This document shows, piece by piece, positions 2,696-33,482 of a stretch of DNA of 33,482 bases; positions within the stretch are counted from its first letter, which is position 1; each line of letters starts with the position of its first letter. Origin of the DNA: Sulfurihydrogenibium sp. (lineage in GTDB: Bacteria; Aquificota; Aquificia; Aquificales; Hydrogenothermaceae). The stretch covers positions 1 through 33,482 of the forward strand of contig NZ_DAIDMN010000005.1 in assembly GCF_027448985.1 (NCBI RefSeq). Direction: 5' to 3'. The position numbers and the translations under genes were made by a program. Under the pieces are notes generated by a model. The model was not told the DNA's origin. It saw only the letters and a list, made by a program, of their open reading frames with translations, and made no database searches.

Positions 2696-3971
2696 TTTTC
2701 TTTTCTAAACTTTTTACGATATTTTTAAACTGTTCTCCCCTGTCTGCATAACTTTTAAACATGTCAAAGCTTGCACATCCGGGGGAAAGTAAAACGGTAT
2801 CTCCTTTTTCGGCATTTTCGTAAGCTTTCATAACAGCTTCTTCTAAATCTTGTGCTGTTTCTACCTGTGTAAATTTTTTTATCATATTTTTTATTTCTTC
2901 TTTGTCTCTTCCTATTACAATAGCTTTTTTAACTTTATTTTTTAACTTTTCTCTTAAAGTAGAAAAATCTCCACCTTTATTTATTCCACCTAAAATTAGT
3001 ATAATCTTGTTATCAAAGCTATCGATGGCTTTTTCAACAGCTTGGACGGTAGTTGCTTTTGAGTCGTTGTAAAAGTAAATACCACCTATCTGTGATACAA
3101 ACTCAATTCTGTGTGGAAGTGGCTGAAATTCTTCTATAACTTTTATAACTTTGTCAAAGTTTAGTTTATACATGTATGCTGACAGTATACTTGCCATTAT
3201 GTTTTGTAAGTTATGTAGCCCTATGAGTTTAGGTTTTATTTTAAATTCAAGTTTAAAGCTATCTTTTAGTACCAAAACGTATCCATCTTTTTCTTTGTTT
3301 TTTAAGTATATCCCTTTCTTATCATCAGGAAGTTTTTGCAAAGAGAAGTAATATATTTTACTTTTGGCTTTGATGTTTTTCAGTAGATTATCATCGTAGT
3401 TAAGTATAAGAAAGTCATTTTCTGTCTGGTTTTTAAATATTTTGAATTTTGATAGAATGTAATGTCTCATCTTTTTGTGCCAATCAAGGTGGTCTTTTGA
3501 GATGTTAAGTATTACTGCTACGTTTGGTTTAAAGTTTTTTGTGGAGTAAAGCTGAAATGACGAAAGCTCTAAAACAGCCAGGTCATAGTTTTCTTCTAAT
3601 GCGTTTATAAATGGAATTCCGTAGTTACCTCCTACAAATACATTCTTATTGGTTACATTTTTGAATATCTCATAAGTCAAGGATGTTGTGGTAGTCTTTC
3701 CATCTGTTCCAGTTATTGCGATAACATCTCCGTGGAAGTGTTTATAACCAAACTCAATCTCTGAAATTATAGGAATTCTTGTTTTTTTTGCAAATTTGTA
3801 AATTTCTTTGAAAAATGGAACTCCGGGAGATACTACTATTAAATCTATTCTTTCCGGATTGATAGCAGATAAATCATCATTTTCATCTAAAATTAGATTC
3901 TCAATCCCTTTTTTATCTAAGTAATTTTTTAAATCTGTTCCTGTCTTGCCTTTTCCATAGATTAGAATCAT
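2688..3971 (-). CDS. murD: UDP-N-acetylmuramoylalanine--D-glutamate ligase
   Basis: ITGTDGKTTTTSL, LELSSFQL, NISKDHLDWH, LPHRIEFV and LSPGCASFDMFKSYADRGEQF motifs. Confidence 0.95.
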   Translation of the reverse strand: MILIYGKGKTGTDLKNYLDKKGIENLILDENDDLSAINPERIDLIVVSPGVPFFKEIYKFAKKTRIPIISEIEFGYKHFHGDVIAITGTDGKTTTTSLTYEIFKNVTNKNVFVGGNYGIPFINALEENYDLAVLELSSFQLYSTKNFKPNVAVILNISKDHLDWHKKMRHYILSKFKIFKNQTENDFLILNYDDNLLKNIKAKSKIYYFSLQKLPDDKKGIYLKNKEKDGYVLVLKDSFKLEFKIKPKLIGLHNLQNIMASILSAYMYKLNFDKVIKVIEEFQPLPHRIEFVSQIGGIYFYNDSKATTVQAVEKAIDSFDNKIILILGGINKGGDFSTLREKLKNKVKKAIVIGRDKEEIKNMIKKFTQVETAQDLEEAVMKAYENAEKGDTVLLSPGCASFDMFKSYADRGEQFKNIVKSLEKKNG

Positions 3972-5506
3972 TTTATCTTCTCAACCTCAAAATTTGTTAT
4001 ATTTCTTTTCTCTTTGCTAAACTCTATCCCTATCATGTAAATCTCTTTATACTTGTCTTGGTATTTTTCGTAATACTTTTTCTCTTTTATCTGGTCCAAT
4101 GCTTTTCCTTCTTGGGTTTCTTCTATCACTTTAAACTCTATTATGTAAACTTTGTCGTGTGCTATCACAGTTAGGTCTATCTTCCCTCTGTTTGTAGCAT
4201 CTTCTGTGATGGTTGTTAAACCACTTCCGGTAAGTAGTGCGTATATTACAGATGCGTAAAATCCTTCATACTCTTGAATGTTGTTTTTCCTATACCAGTT
4301 TGTTGGTATGCTTGCAAAAAAGCTGTAAAGTGTTTGTTTTATTTTTTCTATGTCTGATGATAAAAAGGCTCTTATCAGGTTTAGCTGGGTTTTACTTGCT
4401 TGGGGTGGGGGTATTATATGGGTTAAAAATGCATCGTTGAAACTTGTTTTTACTTCAAGGTTTGGATATGTCAGTAGATAGTAGCTTTTGTTTGATATTC
4501 TGTAATGGTCTTTTATAGTCAGGTATCCGGATTGAAACAGTAGATTTTCCGGATATATGTAATCAATATCAAGGTTAGATAGTATCTCTTCTCCTACTTC
4601 TAAGTTCTCTAAATCTGGAAGGTAGTACTGGTTTTTTTGAAAGAGTTTTATCAAAAATGTGGGTGTTCCGGTTTCAAACCAGTAGGGTCTAAACATTTTG
4701 TTGGCAAATAGTAGTAGTATGTCAAATGGGTTGTAGACTGGCTCTCCTAACCAGTTGTAGCCGTTATACCATCTTTTTACTTCTTCTTTGTCAAAGTCTT
4801 TTATTCTGTCTTCAAAGACTGTCTCTAACTCTGTTTGGGTATATCCGCATATGGTTGCAAATTCTGGAAGTAGTGTTATATCCATAAGTTGGTTTAGCCC
4901 ACTGAATATTGATACTTTTGAGAATCTTGATACTCCGGTCAAAAATACAAGGTGTAGATATGGGTCAGATGGTTTTAGTATCTCAAAGAATTTTTTGAGT
5001 ACTTCTCTGTTGTTTTTTGCTTTTTGGGTGTCTTCTATAACATCCAGTATTGGTTTGTCGTACTCGTCTATCAATACCACTACTTTTTGGTTGTGTTTTT
5101 CATACAGTTTTTTGATTAGTTCTTGGAATTTTAGGTTTGGGTGTTGGTTTTGTAATTCTATTGAGTATTCACTTGCATTGGTGTCCAATAAGTAGTTAAG
5201 AGAATGTTCTAATCTTTCTATCGTGTCTGTTAAGGCTATGCTTAGATCTATCCTTACAACCGGATATTTTTTATCCCAATCCCAGTTATCATACAGGTAT
5301 AGACCTTTAAACAGTTCTTTATTTCCACTGAATGCTTCTTTTAGAGTATCTAAAAATAGAGATTTTCCAAATCTTCTTGGTCTGCTTAAGAAAAAGTATT
5401 TTCCTTTTTCTTGTAGTTTTTTTACAAATGGTGTTTTGTCTACATAATAGTATCCTTCCGTAAGTATCTCTTTTAAATTCTGTACTCCTATTGGTAGTTT
5501 TTTCAT
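3968..5506 (-). CDS. AAA-ATPase-like protein with C-terminal PD-(D/E)XK nuclease-like domain (AAA-ATPase_like / PDDEXK_9 family), copy 1, intact
   Basis: PIGVQNLKEILTEGYYYVDKTPFVKKL, SRPRRFGKSLFLDTL (Walker A-like), VVVLIDEYDKPIL (Walker B), C-terminal GKIDLTVIAHDKVYIIEFKV. Confidence 0.85.
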   Translation of the reverse strand: MKKLPIGVQNLKEILTEGYYYVDKTPFVKKLQEKGKYFFLSRPRRFGKSLFLDTLKEAFSGNKELFKGLYLYDNWDWDKKYPVVRIDLSIALTDTIERLEHSLNYLLDTNASEYSIELQNQHPNLKFQELIKKLYEKHNQKVVVLIDEYDKPILDVIEDTQKAKNNREVLKKFFEILKPSDPYLHLVFLTGVSRFSKVSIFSGLNQLMDITLLPEFATICGYTQTELETVFEDRIKDFDKEEVKRWYNGYNWLGEPVYNPFDILLLFANKMFRPYWFETGTPTFLIKLFQKNQYYLPDLENLEVGEEILSNLDIDYIYPENLLFQSGYLTIKDHYRISNKSYYLLTYPNLEVKTSFNDAFLTHIIPPPQASKTQLNLIRAFLSSDIEKIKQTLYSFFASIPTNWYRKNNIQEYEGFYASVIYALLTGSGLTTITEDATNRGKIDLTVIAHDKVYIIEFKVIEETQEGKALDQIKEKKYYEKYQDKYKEIYMIGIEFSKEKRNITNFEVEKIK

Positions 5507-8200: not shown

Positions 8201-9370
8201 ATGGAAGAAAAAAATGTAAATACAACTTCTCAACAACAATGTTATGAAGATGAAATAGACCTTTTTCAACTTTGGGAAACCATATGGAACAATAGAAAAT
8301 TTATAATGATTTTTACGGGAGTTATAACATTTTTAACGGGAGTGATATCTTTTATCCTACCAAAAACCTATACAAGTGAGGCTGTGATAGTTCCGATTTC
8401 AAAAAGTAGTGGTGGGAGTGGACTCTCCGCTATCGCTGCAATGGCAGGACTACCAGTAGGGACAGACCAAAATCAATCTAACGTAAAAGCTGTTTTAGAA
8501 AGCTTAACTTTAAGAGAAAGAGTGATAAAAGATTTGAATCTTATCGATGAGATACTTGAAGACTCAAAAGAAGAGTATAAGTATCCTTTACAAGTAGCTG
8601 CAGAAAAAATAAAGAAAAACATAAATGCTAATGTTAATCAAAAGGAAGGAACTATTAAAATAACCGTTGATTGGAAAAATCCAGAAATGGCTCAAAAGAT
8701 AAATCAAAGTGTGATAGATAATTTAAGAAAAATCTTAAACGAGAAAGCTTTTACAGTTGCTAAAATGAACAGAGTTTTCTACGAAAATGAATTAGAAAAA
8801 ACAAAACAACAATTAAAAGACGCTATGGAACAGCTAAACAAGTTCCAAAAAGAAAAGCAGGTAATAATGCCAGAAAATCAACTACAAAACCAGTTACAAC
8901 TTTATGCCAACTTAATAGCAGAAAAATTACAACTTGAAGCTAAAATAAACTCTATGTCAACAGTCTTGACAGCAGATCATCCCCAGTTGAAAGAAGCTTA
9001 TAACAGACTTGCGTACCTAAATCAAAAGATAGCGGAAGTTGAAGGAAAGATAAAAACAGACTCTCCTTTATCGACAGAGAAAACTTTATCTGTGATTCCC
9101 GATTATGCTCCTATATATATGAAAGTTCAGCAACTGAAAGCAAAATACGAAATTTTAGGAAAATTGTTGGAACAAGCAAGAATAGATGAACTTAAAGAGA
9201 ACTTGTACGTAGAAGTGATAGACTATCCTACATATCCGGAAAAACCATCAAAACCAAAGAAAAGATTGATGGTAGCTGTAGCATTTGTAAGTAGTTTATT
9301 TTTAGCAATATTTATAGTCTTTATAAGAGAAGCTATAAAAAATAGAAAAAAACGATTTGCAAATTTATGA
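8201..9370 (+). CDS. Chain-length determinant / Wzz family protein (no kinase domain visible)
   Basis: N-terminal TM after IDLFQLWETIWNNRKFIMIF, long coiled region, C-terminal P-x2-P-rich segment (YPTYPEKPSKPKKRLMVA) plus TM. Confidence 0.85.
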   Translation: MEEKNVNTTSQQQCYEDEIDLFQLWETIWNNRKFIMIFTGVITFLTGVISFILPKTYTSEAVIVPISKSSGGSGLSAIAAMAGLPVGTDQNQSNVKAVLESLTLRERVIKDLNLIDEILEDSKEEYKYPLQVAAEKIKKNINANVNQKEGTIKITVDWKNPEMAQKINQSVIDNLRKILNEKAFTVAKMNRVFYENELEKTKQQLKDAMEQLNKFQKEKQVIMPENQLQNQLQLYANLIAEKLQLEAKINSMSTVLTADHPQLKEAYNRLAYLNQKIAEVEGKIKTDSPLSTEKTLSVIPDYAPIYMKVQQLKAKYEILGKLLEQARIDELKENLYVEVIDYPTYPEKPSKPKKRLMVAVAFVSSLFLAIFIVFIREAIKNRKKRFANL

Positions 9371-20438: not shown

Positions 20439-21968
20439 TTAATTTTTAAGTAAGACAGAAGTTGGATTTTCAAAAAGGTCTTTTTTCTTGATTATCACTT
20501 TCAGCTCTTTTATATCTTTTAATTCTTCTAAATACTCTTGTCTTGTTAAGATGTTGACTTTCCCTTGTTTCATAAACTCTTTCACTTCATCTGGAGAGTT
20601 GAGTGGTACTATCCTTTTTTTTAAGTAAAAAGAAAAAGCCGGATTGTACCTTTTGTAATAACCAATGGGTAAGTCTTTGTCTATGTAAGGAAGTATTACT
20701 CTAACGGAAGATTCTCTGTCAACTTTTGGCATGACTACATAAAAGAACACCAAACTCATTAAAACAGACGAGACAAATAAAGAACCAATAACTTTACTGA
20801 TCTCTTTGTAAAAGATGATAGAGGAAACTGCTCCAAAAGTCAAAATAAAGAAAAACCAAGAATAATCAGCAATTAAATAAAGATTTTTATCACCTTTCAA
20901 AGAAAAGTAAAGGAAAAAAGGAATTGAAGAAGTCAAAACCAAATAGAAAATCAAACTATAAAAATACTTGAAATTTTTTAACTTTTCTAATGTAAAAGCA
21001 AGAAGTATTGATAAAGCCGGATAAACCGGAACTGTGTAGTTTGGAAGTTTAGTTTTTGAGATACTAAAAAAAAGAGTATAGATAAAAACAAAGATAGCTA
21101 AAAGCAAAATAGATGGATTAAATCTACTTTTAAAAACCTCTTTTGTCATTTGTGGTAAAAATACACTAAAAGGTAACATACCTACAAAAACGAAGATAAA
21201 CGTGATTAAAAATATACCACCGTGACCTTCCATAGAATCAGAAAAACGAGAGATGTTGTGTTTAAACAAAAATTCTTTAATCCATACCCAATCTGTTTTG
21301 ATTCCGACAGCAACATACCAAGGAATGGATATCAGAAAAGTCAAAATTAAACCTTTAAAAATTTTCATCTGTTTCAACACTGAAAGTTCTTTCCTTAAAA
21401 GTAAAAAAATAAAAATGGTAAAGGATGGTAAAACAAAAGCAACTAAACCTTTTGATAAAATTCCAAATCCTAATGAAATGTAAAACAGATATATATATTT
21501 TTCTTTTTTTTCTTGATAAAACAGATAAAAAGAAAATATTGAAGCAGTGATAAAAAATATCAAATATGGGTCTGGAACAGCCATATGAAACTGAAACACA
21601 AAATGCAACGAAGAAAGTAAAATAATGTAAGAAAAAATAGCTATTTTTTCATCAAAAACCCTTTTAGCAAAAAGGAATGTTAGCATTACTGTAAAGCTTC
21701 CAAACAAAGAAGAGAAAAATCTTGCTGAAAACTCGTTAACACCAAACATTTTATACGCGAACATCATAAAGTAGTAGTGTAAAGGTGGTTTGTCTGTTCT
21801 AAGTTCATAGTTGAAAGTAGGAACTATAAAATCTCCCCTTTCAAGCATCTCCCTTGCACATGAAGCATTTTTGGCTTCATCAAGACTAAAGATAGATATT
21901 CCCCATATGTTAGAAACAAACAGTAAAAAAGCAAAAAACCAAAGGAAAAAGTTTTTAAAAAACTTCAT
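20439..21968 (-). CDS. ArnT-like / GT39-type membrane glycosyltransferase
   Basis: Multi-TM; SLDEAKNASCAREMLERGDFIVPTFNYELRTDKPPLHYY. ATG start 21968 preferred over the TTG at 21971. Confidence 0.82.
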   Translation of the reverse strand: MKFFKNFFLWFFAFLLFVSNIWGISIFSLDEAKNASCAREMLERGDFIVPTFNYELRTDKPPLHYYFMMFAYKMFGVNEFSARFFSSLFGSFTVMLTFLFAKRVFDEKIAIFSYIILLSSLHFVFQFHMAVPDPYLIFFITASIFSFYLFYQEKKEKYIYLFYISLGFGILSKGLVAFVLPSFTIFIFLLLRKELSVLKQMKIFKGLILTFLISIPWYVAVGIKTDWVWIKEFLFKHNISRFSDSMEGHGGIFLITFIFVFVGMLPFSVFLPQMTKEVFKSRFNPSILLLAIFVFIYTLFFSISKTKLPNYTVPVYPALSILLAFTLEKLKNFKYFYSLIFYLVLTSSIPFFLYFSLKGDKNLYLIADYSWFFFILTFGAVSSIIFYKEISKVIGSLFVSSVLMSLVFFYVVMPKVDRESSVRVILPYIDKDLPIGYYKRYNPAFSFYLKKRIVPLNSPDEVKEFMKQGKVNILTRQEYLEELKDIKELKVIIKKKDLFENPTSVLLKN

Positions 21969-23384
21969 CAAGTAGGTATAACCTTCTCAACTTCAAAGTT
22001 AACAATATTCCTTTTCTCTTTACTAAACTCTATTCCAATTAGGTATATCTCTTTGTACTTGTCTTGGTACTTCTCATAATATTTTTTCTCTTTTATCTGC
22101 TCTAAAGCTTTTCCTTCTTGGCTTTCCTCTATCACTTTAAACTCTATTATGTAAACCTTTTCTTGTGATATCACCGTCAGGTCTATCTTTCCTTTATTTG
22201 TGGTATCTTCCGCTATGGTTGTTAAGCCACTTCCGGTAAATAATGCGTATATTACAGATGCGTAAAAACCTTCGTACTGGTATATGTCGTTTTTCCTGTA
22301 CCAGTCTGTTGGTATGCTTGCAAAAAAGCTGTATAGGTTTTGTTTTACTTGGTCTAATTCTGCGTTCTCTAATGCTTCTGCTATCTTTATCTTATACTCT
22401 GATGGTTCTGCGTCGTAAAATAGGTACTCTAAAAGTGTACTGTTTAGGCTCATTTTTACTTCCAAGTTTGGATAGGTTAGTATGTATATGGTCCTTGCTC
22501 CTATCTTTTTTGTTTATAAGTAATTTTATCAAAAATGTGGGTGTTCCGGTTTCAAACCAGTAAGGTCTAAACATTTTGTTGGCAAATAGTAGTAGTATGT
22601 CAAAAGGGTTATAAACAGGTTCTCCAAGCCAGTTGTAGCCGTTGTACCATATTTTTACTTCTTCTTTGTCAAAGTCTTTTATTCTGTCTTCAAAGACAGT
22701 TTCTAAATCTGTCTGGGTATATCCACATACGGTTGCAAATTCTGGAAGTAGTGTTATATCCATAAGTTGGTTTAGTCCACTGAATATAGATACTTTTGAG
22801 AATCTTGATACTCCTGTTAAAAATACAAGGTGTAGGTATGGGTCTGCATCTTTCAACACAGAGTAGAAATCTTTTAACACTTCTCTGTTTTCTTTTGCTA
22901 TATCCGGTTCTTCTATCCTGTCTAATATTGGTTTGTCGTATTCGTCTATCAATACCACTACTTTTTGGTTGTGTTTTTCTGATAGTTTTTCTATAAGCTC
23001 TTTAAACCTTAAACTTAGGACTTCTTCCGTTAATTTAATGTTTTCTTCAAGTGCAATTTTATTTATGAAAGAGTTTATTATCTTAATTAGTTTATCTTTG
23101 TTATCAACCACACCACTACCAAAACTTATATGTATAACCGGATATTTTTTATCCCAATCCCAGTTATTATACAAATACAAACCTTTAAACAGTTCTCTGT
23201 TTCCACTGAATGCTTCTTTTAGAGTATCTAAAAATAAAGATTTTCCAAATCTTCTTGGCCTGCTTAAGAAGAAGTATTTTCCTTTTTCTTGTAGTTTTTT
23301 TACAAATGGAGTTTTGTCTACATAGTAGTATCCTTCCGTAAGTATCTCTTTTAGGTTTTGTATTCCTATTGGTAGTTTTTTCAT
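21968..23384 (-). pseudogene. AAA-ATPase-like/PD-(D/E)XK gene, copy 2, disrupted by internal deletion with frameshift
   Basis: ORFs 22392-23384 and 21968-22465 match the N- and C-terminal parts of copy 1. The segment between FLIKL and the TYPNLEVK region is missing and the frame changes. Confidence 0.88.
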
Positions 23385-31570: not shown

Positions 31571-31951
31571 GTGGTTAAGATGAAATACGGAGAAAAAGAG
31601 ATATTAGAGGCAAAGTTAGAACCTTGGCCAAATCCTTATCCAGATAGAAATTACATTATAGATATAACTTTTCCAGAGTTTTCGTGTCTCTGTCCAAGGT
31701 CTGGATATCCGGATTATGCAACAATAAAGATAACCTATATTCCGGATAAATACATAGTAGAACTAAAATCTTTAAAACTCTACTTAAACAAGTATAGAAA
31801 CCAGTATATATCTCACGAAGAAGCAACTAACAAAATATACGAAGACTTATACAATCTCCTAAAACCAAGAAAATTAGAAGTTGTAGGAGATTGGAACCCA
31901 AGAGGAAACGTAAAAACAATAATAAAAGTTAGTAGTGAAGATAATAAATAA
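31571..31951 (+). CDS. queF: NADPH-dependent 7-cyano-7-deazaguanine (preQ0) reductase
   Basis: [44 protein letters not shown]; short (type I) form. Confidence 0.95.
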
Positions 31952-32392
31952 CTATTTTTTTAATTTTTCTAAAATCTTTTTATAAGTATCTTCATATTTT
32001 GGGTCTTTTTTAATTGTTAAAGCTTCCTCTATGTACTTCTGGGCTTCTTCGTATTTTCCTAACTCATACAACACGTAAGCTAAATTATTTAAAACATCCG
32101 GATTTCTTTCTTTTTCCAATGCCTTTAAATAATACTCAACAGCTTTTTCTTTTTCCCCTTTTTTATAGTAAAGGTTACCAAGATTAAAATAAGGTAAGTA
32201 CCAATCCTTATTTTTATTTATTGCTTTTTTATACTCCTTTTCTGCTAAATCGAACATAGATTTTTTTTCATATACCACTCCTAAATCGTTGTGTTCTGCA
32301 GCAGATAAAGGATCATCGTATACAATAATTTTAGGTAGAGAACAAGAGGTAATAAAAAAAATAGTTGAAATTATAAAAAGTCTTTTTTTCAT
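31952..32392 (-). CDS. TPR lipoprotein resembling the C-terminal half of PA2778-family proteins
   Basis: Lipobox-like FFITSCS; AAEHNDLGVVYEKKSMFDLAEKEYKKAI and further TPRs. Confidence 0.78.
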   Translation of the reverse strand: MKKRLFIISTIFFITSCSLPKIIVYDDPLSAAEHNDLGVVYEKKSMFDLAEKEYKKAINKNKDWYLPYFNLGNLYYKKGEKEKAVEYYLKALEKERNPDVLNNLAYVLYELGKYEEAQKYIEEALTIKKDPKYEDTYKKILEKLKK

Positions 32393-32877
32393 TTATAAAC
32401 CACTAAAATAACTTTACCCAATTTTTCCCATTTTTGTTTAAAATCTTCATAAGAGATAAACTCCTTTTCTTTGTATCCTGTATTAACTATAAAACCTTTT
32501 TCATTATAACCTATAATCACGATATAATGTGGTTTAGATATTAACCAAAATCCTAAATCTATTAAAGCTATTACAGGCTTTTTTTCATCAATGAAAGATT
32601 TTATCTCTGTAATATCCGATGTTTTTAAAATAGTATAAAATCCTTTTTCTTTCGCAAAATTTTCAAGGTCTGTTATTAGTGCACCTTTTAATTTAGGATT
32701 ATAAATAAACTTAGCAATATCCTCTTGGTCTGTCTTTTCGCCGTAAAATTGGAAAATAGAAGATAAAGAGGCAGGACCACAGTATTCATCTTTTTGTTTT
32801 ACAAAAGGAACAGATAAAATGTTTGATGCGAATGAAAAATCCAAAAATATAAATATAAATAATATAATCTTTTTCAT
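32389..32877 (-). CDS. Secreted C39-like cysteine peptidase resembling the N-terminal half of PA2778-family proteins
   Basis: Signal peptide; VPFVKQKDEYCGPASLSSIFQFYG (Q...C), PHYIVIIGYNEKGFIVNTG (H). Confidence 0.82.
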   Translation of the reverse strand: MKKIILFIFIFLDFSFASNILSVPFVKQKDEYCGPASLSSIFQFYGEKTDQEDIAKFIYNPKLKGALITDLENFAKEKGFYTILKTSDITEIKSFIDEKKPVIALIDLGFWLISKPHYIVIIGYNEKGFIVNTGYKEKEFISYEDFKQKWEKLGKVILVVYK

Positions 32878-32880
32878 ACT

Positions 32881-32916
32881 TTTAGAAAAAGTAAATGAGG
32901 GGGTGTTATCCCCTCA
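32881..32916 (-). terminator. Intercistronic terminator/attenuator-like hairpin between the PA2779-like and C39 genes
   Basis: Minus strand TGAGGGG (32916-32910), 7-nt loop, CCCCTCA (32902-32896), then T-rich tttactttttct. Confidence 0.55.
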
Positions 32917-32922
32917 ATGTAT

Positions 32923-33321
32923 TTATCTAATTATGATTTCTTTATTTAACAATTTAAGAATGACTATGATAAGTAAAATAATTACCAAAATACCAATCGC
33001 AAAACCTATTCCATCTCCACCTGCCAAAACTTTATCAGATGCTTGAGCAAGCATATGTATCTGTTGGTCGTTCATTTTTGATAATTTTTCCTTTACTTCT
33101 TCTTCTGATAAGCCATAAGCTTTTAATTTTTCTTTTACAATTTGATTTTCTAAAGCTCTTTGAATCTTATCTATATCTATATTTCTCTGATTTTCTATAA
33201 CAGATTGGTTATTAGACATTAAAGAATCAACCATTGCTGCTGGTGCTGATGCAGTTGATAATAAAGTCATATAACCTGCCATCGCTACTGCTATACTTGC
33301 TTTCTTTAATCTTTTTATCAT
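32923..33321 (-). CDS. PA2779-family-like small secreted protein with a C-terminal GG-TM-basic tail
   Basis: Signal peptide, short helical region with EEVKEKLSKMNDQQIHMLAQASDKVLAGGDGIGFAIGILVIILLIIVILKLLNKEIIIR. Confidence 0.75.
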   Translation of the reverse strand: MIKRLKKASIAVAMAGYMTLLSTASAPAAMVDSLMSNNQSVIENQRNIDIDKIQRALENQIVKEKLKAYGLSEEEVKEKLSKMNDQQIHMLAQASDKVLAGGDGIGFAIGILVIILLIIVILKLLNKEIIIR

Positions 33322-33352
33322 TTAGCTTACCTCATGACATAAATTTTTGTTA

Positions 33353-33381
33353 ATTTTATATTATAGTTTGAAAATTGTCAA
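33353..33381 (-). promoter_or_regulatory. Predicted strong promoter for the PA2779-like gene
   Basis: Minus strand TTGACA (33381-33376), 17-bp spacer, TAAAAT (33358-33353). Confidence 0.65.
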
Positions 33382-33405
33382 TATATCTAATAAATTAAAT
33401 AATCA

Positions 33406-33482
33406 AACTCTAATTTCCAATTTAAATAATTTTAAAACAAACCAAGACAAGTAGCAAAACTTAAAGCTAAAATGAAGAAGTT
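33406..33482. repeat. Right copy of 77-bp exact terminal inverted repeat
   Basis: Read directly against bases 1-77. Confidence 0.97.

Follow-up and report, generated by a model that had tools for sequence, protein, structure and literature searches.

The protein families PA2778 and PA2779 have both been named already and lie side by side in annotated records, and no functional study of them was found in the open papers searched. Among the systems that they most closely resemble, the leaders recognized by ComA are characterized by hydrophobic residues at positions -15, -12, -7 and -4 (PMC10885120), while the periplasmic C39 peptidase FapD is exported by the Sec route, and Fap secretion depends on its Cys (PMC5557850). 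Rhombosortase, in turn, anchors VesB, and in those rhombosortase systems that have a single target the gene of the enzyme adjoins that of the target (PMC3237569).

The cassette described here is a conserved two-gene unit, which comprises three genes in the window, that is, in the whole stretch of 33,482 nucleotides that was analysed. We conclude that its C39 peptidase and its PA2779-family protein constitute a dedicated, extracytoplasmic double-glycine protease/substrate pair for which cleavage is proposed, and we assign a probability of roughly 0.6 to the reading that the exported C39 peptidase cuts the membrane-held PA2779 protein after the double glycine (GG) and in this way frees its helical N-terminal part.

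Composition of the cassette

Three consecutive genes on the minus strand (33321-32923, 32877-32389 and 32392-31952) encode, in this order, a PA2779-family protein, a C39 peptidase and a TPR lipoprotein, the latter two matching the PA2778 model in the order of a split PA2778 protein. An earlier note on this DNA had placed three minus-strand genes here, with the small secreted protein ending in the tail LAGGDGIGFAIGILVIILLIIVILKLLNKEIIIR and with a 4-nt overlap between the C39 and TPR genes, and the sequence bears out each of these points.

32923..33321, minus strand: PA2779-family protein (DUF6627), 132 aa, proposed substrate (profile matches)
32389..32877, minus strand: C39-type cysteine peptidase, 162 aa, with signal-peptide-like N-terminus (profile matches; model pLDDT 91.3)
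31952..32392, minus strand: TPR lipoprotein, 146 aa (profile matches)
32342..32353, minus strand: lipobox ITSC of the TPR lipoprotein (sequence; SC-S-x-P in 16/16 detected homologues)
32389..32392: overlap of the C39 and TPR genes, 4 nt (sequence)

The first gene product belongs to the PA2779 family, scoring 101.9 bits against NF033919 (PA2779_fam; cut-off 40) and 49.6 bits against PF20332 (DUF6627; cut-off 27). The C39 protein lies above both Pfam cut-offs (PF03412, 53.9 with a cut-off of 22; PF13529, 58.7 with a cut-off of 24) and aligns to positions 2-144 of NF033920, the PA2778-family model (92.6 bits), and the TPR protein aligns to positions 169-254 of this model (49.3 bits). Since the match is thus divided between two proteins, neither of which alone reaches the cut-off of 150, the cassette represents a split relative and not a full member of NF033920. 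The view that a PA2778-like protein has been split in two is well supported for the C39 half. For the TPR lipoprotein a resemblance, at the level of sequence, to the TPR half of the fused type of PA2778 is plausible, with the reservations that (i) PilW scores above NF033920 (62.7 versus 49.3 bits), (ii) direct pairwise comparison with one fused PA2778 protein gives a weak match (41 aa, E 0.007), and (iii) TPR repeats are generic. Sequencing error as the origin of the split was rejected, because a TPR gene with its own lipobox is located 3' of the C39 gene in 16 loci.

The TPR lipoprotein occurs as a separate gene in family f1 only, which is the family of the window; in family f2 the PA2779/C39 pair is followed by unrelated genes, and a TPR gene next to it was not found. 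Hence the TPR gene, which the earlier note had counted as part of the cassette, lies outside its core, and the minimal unit consists of substrate and C39 peptidase.

The cassette is located at a contig end (window 31571-33482), and a QueF-like gene convergent with the TPR gene (31571-31951) abuts the latter end to end. Elsewhere in the window, an ATPase-like gene (MKKLPIG.QNLKEILTEGYYYVDKTPFVKKL...) is present in two closely similar copies (21968-23384 and 3968-5506), the former of which is split into two reading frames. A search of the window for Rfam families found none.

Co-occurrence of the two genes

In a survey of 136 Aquificota species genomes, an intact PA2779 protein was found in 46, and a PA2778-type C39 protein (at least 150 bits) in exactly these 46. 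The presence or absence of the two proteins agrees over 30 genera, although, because of shared ancestry, the 46 genomes do not represent 46 independent cases. The C39 gene lies directly 3' of the PA2779 gene in nearly all genomes with the pair; in one genome (G031) the two are found on different contigs, and their link is thus independent of position. In another (G055; L049, PA2779 gene at 8667-8957, minus strand), one additional A in the A-run shifts the frame of the PA2779 gene, which is truncated before its membrane helix, a TnpB-like reading frame is located 3' of the broken gene, and the C39 gene is absent.

A search with the single window C39 protein as query retrieved one distant cyanobacterial C39 protein only. 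No relatives were found in viral contigs or phage records, and a search of 98 cyanobacterial genomes for PA2779, conducted without a positive control, found none. Likewise, the loci inspected revealed no neighbour gene common to different lineages that would hint at the role of the part proposed to be released.

The double glycine and the preceding helix

Features of the PA2779 protein that bear on the proposed cleavage are as follows.

33238..33321, minus strand: signal-peptide-like N-terminus, residues 1-28 (cleavage site judged by eye)
33022..33069, minus strand: pre-GG helix, residues 85-100 (low-confidence model and alignment)
33016..33021, minus strand: G101-G102, with the proposed cut after G102 (invariant, 48/48)
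32956..33012, minus strand: C-terminal TM helix, residues 104-122 (sequence; the low-confidence model gives a helix at 104-125)
32926..32955, minus strand: conserved tail KLLNKEIIIR (alignment)

The 46 Aquificota proteins were aligned with two betaproteobacterial ones (n = 48, two phyla), and GG conservation beyond Aquificota thus rests on these two proteins, the pairs of which were taken from plasmids. Six columns only are invariant in this alignment (E58, L66, G70, L91, G101 and G102). The double glycine, the lack of which among homologues had been named in the earlier note as speaking against cleavage, is accordingly kept in 48/48 proteins from the two phyla, and its presence by chance was rejected. 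In the signal region, A26 and A28 are conserved. The structure model of the PA2779 protein is poor (pLDDT 60.9) and was used for helix boundaries only.

With -1 assigned to the second Gly, L91 at -12 is invariant, I88 at -15 is I, V or L in 47/48 proteins, and L99 at -4 is L in 41/48. Most of the ComA leader register is thus present before the GG; only position -7 misfits, which is mostly Asp, unlike in ComA leaders. This polar -7 counts against the cleavage reading, and an invariant GG located between one helix and a TM helix could also be structural. The same features bear on a rival explanation, according to which the PA2779 protein would not be cleaved at all but, as a membrane anchor, an activator or an inhibitor, would place its GG in the active-site groove of a peptidase whose real substrate is another protein. 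Co-occurrence and a GG placed in groove register would appear identical in such a case, and KLLNKEIIIR, which lies C-terminal to the proposed cut, shows strong conservation, stronger than would be needed in a fragment that is thrown away. The ComA-like helix register with its invariant L at -12, in contrast, fits a substrate, and we consider a non-cleaved partner rather unlikely.

A scan of the complete genome of a relative (G098) for tails consisting of GG, TM helix and basic end yielded the PA2779 protein only, besides one helix of a 1013-aa transporter-like protein, and the pair hence appears to be dedicated. The Azoarcus PA2779 protein, as annotated, stops right behind the helix and is devoid of the basic tail, which counts against the cleavage reading. 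The layout of motif, helix and basic tail, with one enzyme adjoining one target as in dedicated systems (PMC3237569), and the acyl intermediate formed in Cys enzymes could also be reconciled with a sortase-like transfer, in which the Cys enzyme would cut at the GG and attach the C-terminal Gly formed by the cut to a lipid or another amine, thereby anchoring the protein. Such a transfer is improbable, however, as the peptidase is modelled with a C39 hydrolase fold, neither an acceptor nor a feature for lipid binding was found, and the tail is present once in the genome scanned.

Active site and modelled fold of the peptidase

32794..32796, minus strand: Q28, oxyanion-hole Gln of the C39 peptidase (48/48)
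32779..32781, minus strand: C33, nucleophile (48/48)
32527..32529, minus strand: H117, catalytic His (47/47)
32479..32481, minus strand: T133, third catalytic position (T 36, D 6, S 4, N 1)

The earlier note had named absence of the catalytic Cys and His from most cassette members as a finding that would speak against its proposal, and had doubted activity because the usual Asp position reads NTG. The former was not observed, with Gln and Cys present in 48/48 and His in 47/47 C39 partners. The latter doubt is not borne out either: the column holds T, D, S or N across homologues, all of which are able to hydrogen-bond the catalytic His, so that NTG is no argument for inactivity, activity itself being predicted; we thus rejected inactivity owing to NTG. 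The predominance of Thr over Asp at this position might nonetheless be taken to indicate that an inactive peptidase acts as a chaperone, a role that C39-like domains play in some type 1 secretion transporters. Given the conservation of Gln, Cys and His in two phyla and a third position that is always one of four residues, and considering that the Cys, kept here, is usually missing from C39-like domains that have lost catalytic activity, this appears very improbable.

The best structure matches of the C39 model (pLDDT 91.3) are 3erv, the ComA peptidase 3k8u (TM 0.86 over the target), PCAT1 and the leader-bound peptidase 6mpz, and the sequence profile matches ComA with an E of 1.3e-7, making ComA the closest solved relative by sequence. 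The protein is thus modelled as a ComA-type double-glycine protease. In Azoarcus KH32C, the annotated start of the PA2778-family gene AZKH_RS25055 (L051:5052) misses the region of the catalytic Cys, and the frame extends upstream of that start with ...DAPFFPQEDYQCGPAAL.

Proposed mechanism

In the proposed cleavage, the signal peptide would export the PA2779 protein until its C-terminal helix halts it in the inner membrane, with the short basic tail remaining in the cytoplasm and the helical N-terminal part residing outside; we infer this topology, and with it the direction of release. The C39 peptidase would likewise be exported, and would probably be held or guided by the TPR lipoprotein (family f1) or by the TPR half of the same protein (Proteobacteria). 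It would then recognize the amphipathic pre-GG helix as ComA recognizes its leader and cut after the second Gly, so that a helical part of ~70 residues is freed from the membrane anchor. Cutting at the GG, as put forward in the earlier note, is thus far supported in part, namely by the conservation of the GG and of the catalytic residues, by PA2779/C39 co-occurrence, by the ComA-like fold and by the leader register; FapD provides a precedent for a C39 peptidase exported to the periplasm. A published report of cleavage of a PA2779-family protein was not found in the literature searched.

Relative expression of protease and substrate

33353..33381, minus strand: promoter-like TTGACA-17-TAAAAT upstream of the PA2779 gene, 11/12 (similar frequency in shuffled sequence)
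32896..32916, minus strand: terminator-like intergenic hairpin (PA2779/C39) with a U-rich tail (z -3.2)

The intergenic hairpin, which had been missed in the first reading of the DNA, has counterparts at the same place and of different sequence in loci L003 and L005 (z about -3.4), and it may possibly act as an attenuator of the C39 gene. In genus g14 (L012, L014, L016 and L044), the C39 gene beside the substrate lacks ATG, GTG and TTG in the stretch checked. In 4/4 of these loci an ATA, preceded by the ribosome-binding sequence GAGGTGAT, overlaps the TAA stop codon of the substrate where others have GTG, and this ATA is likely to be the start codon. The relocated C39 copy in G031 (L063) starts with ATG. 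In P. stutzeri DSM4166, one PA2779-family gene ranks among the top 3% of expressed genes (PMC10155442). Taken together, this high expression, the hairpin, the ATA start in g14 and the start-less C39 frame of genus g18 suggest that the substrate is produced in excess over a sparingly made protease.

A predicted substrate-protease fusion in genus g18

In all five g18 species with the pair, the C39 frame contains no ATG, GTG or TTG and codes for no signal peptide; it opens at the stop codon of the substrate, in the -1 frame. The loci concerned are the following.

L023, 1684-1890
L034, 5500-5737, minus strand
L037, 955-1192, minus strand
L039, 8489-8692
L041, 8992-9198

An ordinary start codon was rejected, as none is present in 5/5 species; one of these is also devoid of ATA, ATT, ATC and CTG in the stretch checked. 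The -1 frame is stop-free across the final ~60 codons of the substrate, back to an A7-A8 run, and a slippery heptamer of the type X_XXY_YYZ (A_AAA_AAG or A_AAA_AAA) lies in frame in 5/5 species; in 2/5, the closest upstream stop codon in the -1 frame is located just 16 nt before the A-run. With codon usage and the protein sequence taken into account, an open -1 frame of this kind has a probability of 2-6% per genome, and the frame is open in 5/5 g18 species versus 2/41 other genomes tested. Moreover, T at positions where it would create a -1 stop is found in 0/43 cases after the A-run versus 22/88 before it, with 35/169 at harmless codons after the run and 74/217 in other f2 genomes for comparison. 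Since synonymous sites are (nearly) saturated between three lineages, the g18 cases are not mere copies of each other. A pseudogene was rejected, dN being 0.014-0.285 versus a dS of 0.2 to saturated, which indicates purifying selection.

Such heptamers belong to the kinds that slip strongly in E. coli (PMC4066793), and A-runs of this length could also slip in transcription (PMC3711429). The sequence pattern of an A-run followed by a stop-free -1 frame is likely to reflect either a programmed frameshift or transcriptional slippage. No stimulatory RNA structure was found downstream of the g18 slip site (z -0.3 to -1.5). At -1 frameshift sites, a downstream structure of this kind is common, not universal.

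Ribosome or RNA polymerase would then slip on the A7-A8 run within the substrate gene, so that the majority of translation yields the GG-TM substrate and a minority yields a fusion. The latter would comprise the signal peptide and the first helices of the substrate, a Gly-rich linker and the C39 peptidase, and would be devoid of both the GG site and the membrane helix. Because the predicted fusion supplies the export signal that the g18 peptidase has lost, the peptidase would be expected to act outside the cytoplasm. We consider it quite probable that the g18 protease is made solely as such a recoded substrate fusion, and that a low enzyme:substrate ratio is established throughout Aquificota by means of hairpin attenuator, AUA start or frameshift. 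We know of no precedent for a peptidase tied to part of its own substrate, and such a fusion would count against the cleavage reading; the g18 peptidase, apparently joined to the N-terminal part of its partner, fits the anchoring or carrier role that a non-cleaved PA2779 protein might play.

Implications

As far as the open literature searched is concerned, the split form, the optional TPR gene and the tests of GG and active site are new; the most important new element is the evidence that points to a recoded fusion of substrate and protease. If the C39 peptidase is indeed a double-glycine protease of the periplasm that comes with a single substrate of its own, two uncharacterised families would turn into one testable system, and free-standing periplasmic C39 peptidases, of which FapD is the studied example with an unclear target, would gain their first clear target. 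Making a protease inside the gene of its own substrate by frame slippage would, if true, constitute an unusual way to set the enzyme:substrate ratio.

Comparison with known systems

PA2779 (NF033919, DUF6627) and PA2778 (NF033920) pairs represent the same two families in the same gene order as the cassette in the window. The pairs of Azoarcus and Eleftheria are annotated as PA2778/PA2779 and have GG, Q, C and H in common with it. Their PA2778 proteins, however, combine C39 and TPR in one polypeptide, in Eleftheria with a lipobox, whereas in the window C39 and TPR are encoded separately and the lipobox belongs to the TPR protein.

ComA and PCAT are among the closest solved folds to the window C39 peptidase, ComA being closest by sequence, and their leaders share with the PA2779 protein an amphipathic helix before the GG with hydrophobic residues at -15, -12 and -4 (PMC10885120). 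The window C39 peptidase is free-standing and exported, with no ABC transporter, while ComA and PCAT are the peptidases of ABC exporters; likewise, the GG is followed by a membrane helix in the PA2779 protein, which has a polar -7, and by a secreted peptide in ComA/PCAT substrates. FapD of the Pseudomonas Fap amyloid system is an exported C39 peptidase like that of the window, but belongs to a different operon, and in contrast to FapD, whose target is unclear, the window peptidase has one obvious partner encoded alongside.

Finally, the GlyGly-CTERM/rhombosortase systems and the PA2779 protein have a C-terminal Gly motif, a membrane helix and a basic tail in common, and the analogy drawn in the earlier note thus holds for the layout. 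It does not extend to the type of enzyme, a rhomboid-family intramembrane serine protease there and a C39 cysteine peptidase here, nor to the number of tails: the GlyGly-CTERM tail is usually, though not universally, found on several unrelated proteins, whereas the PA2779-type tail occurs once in G098.
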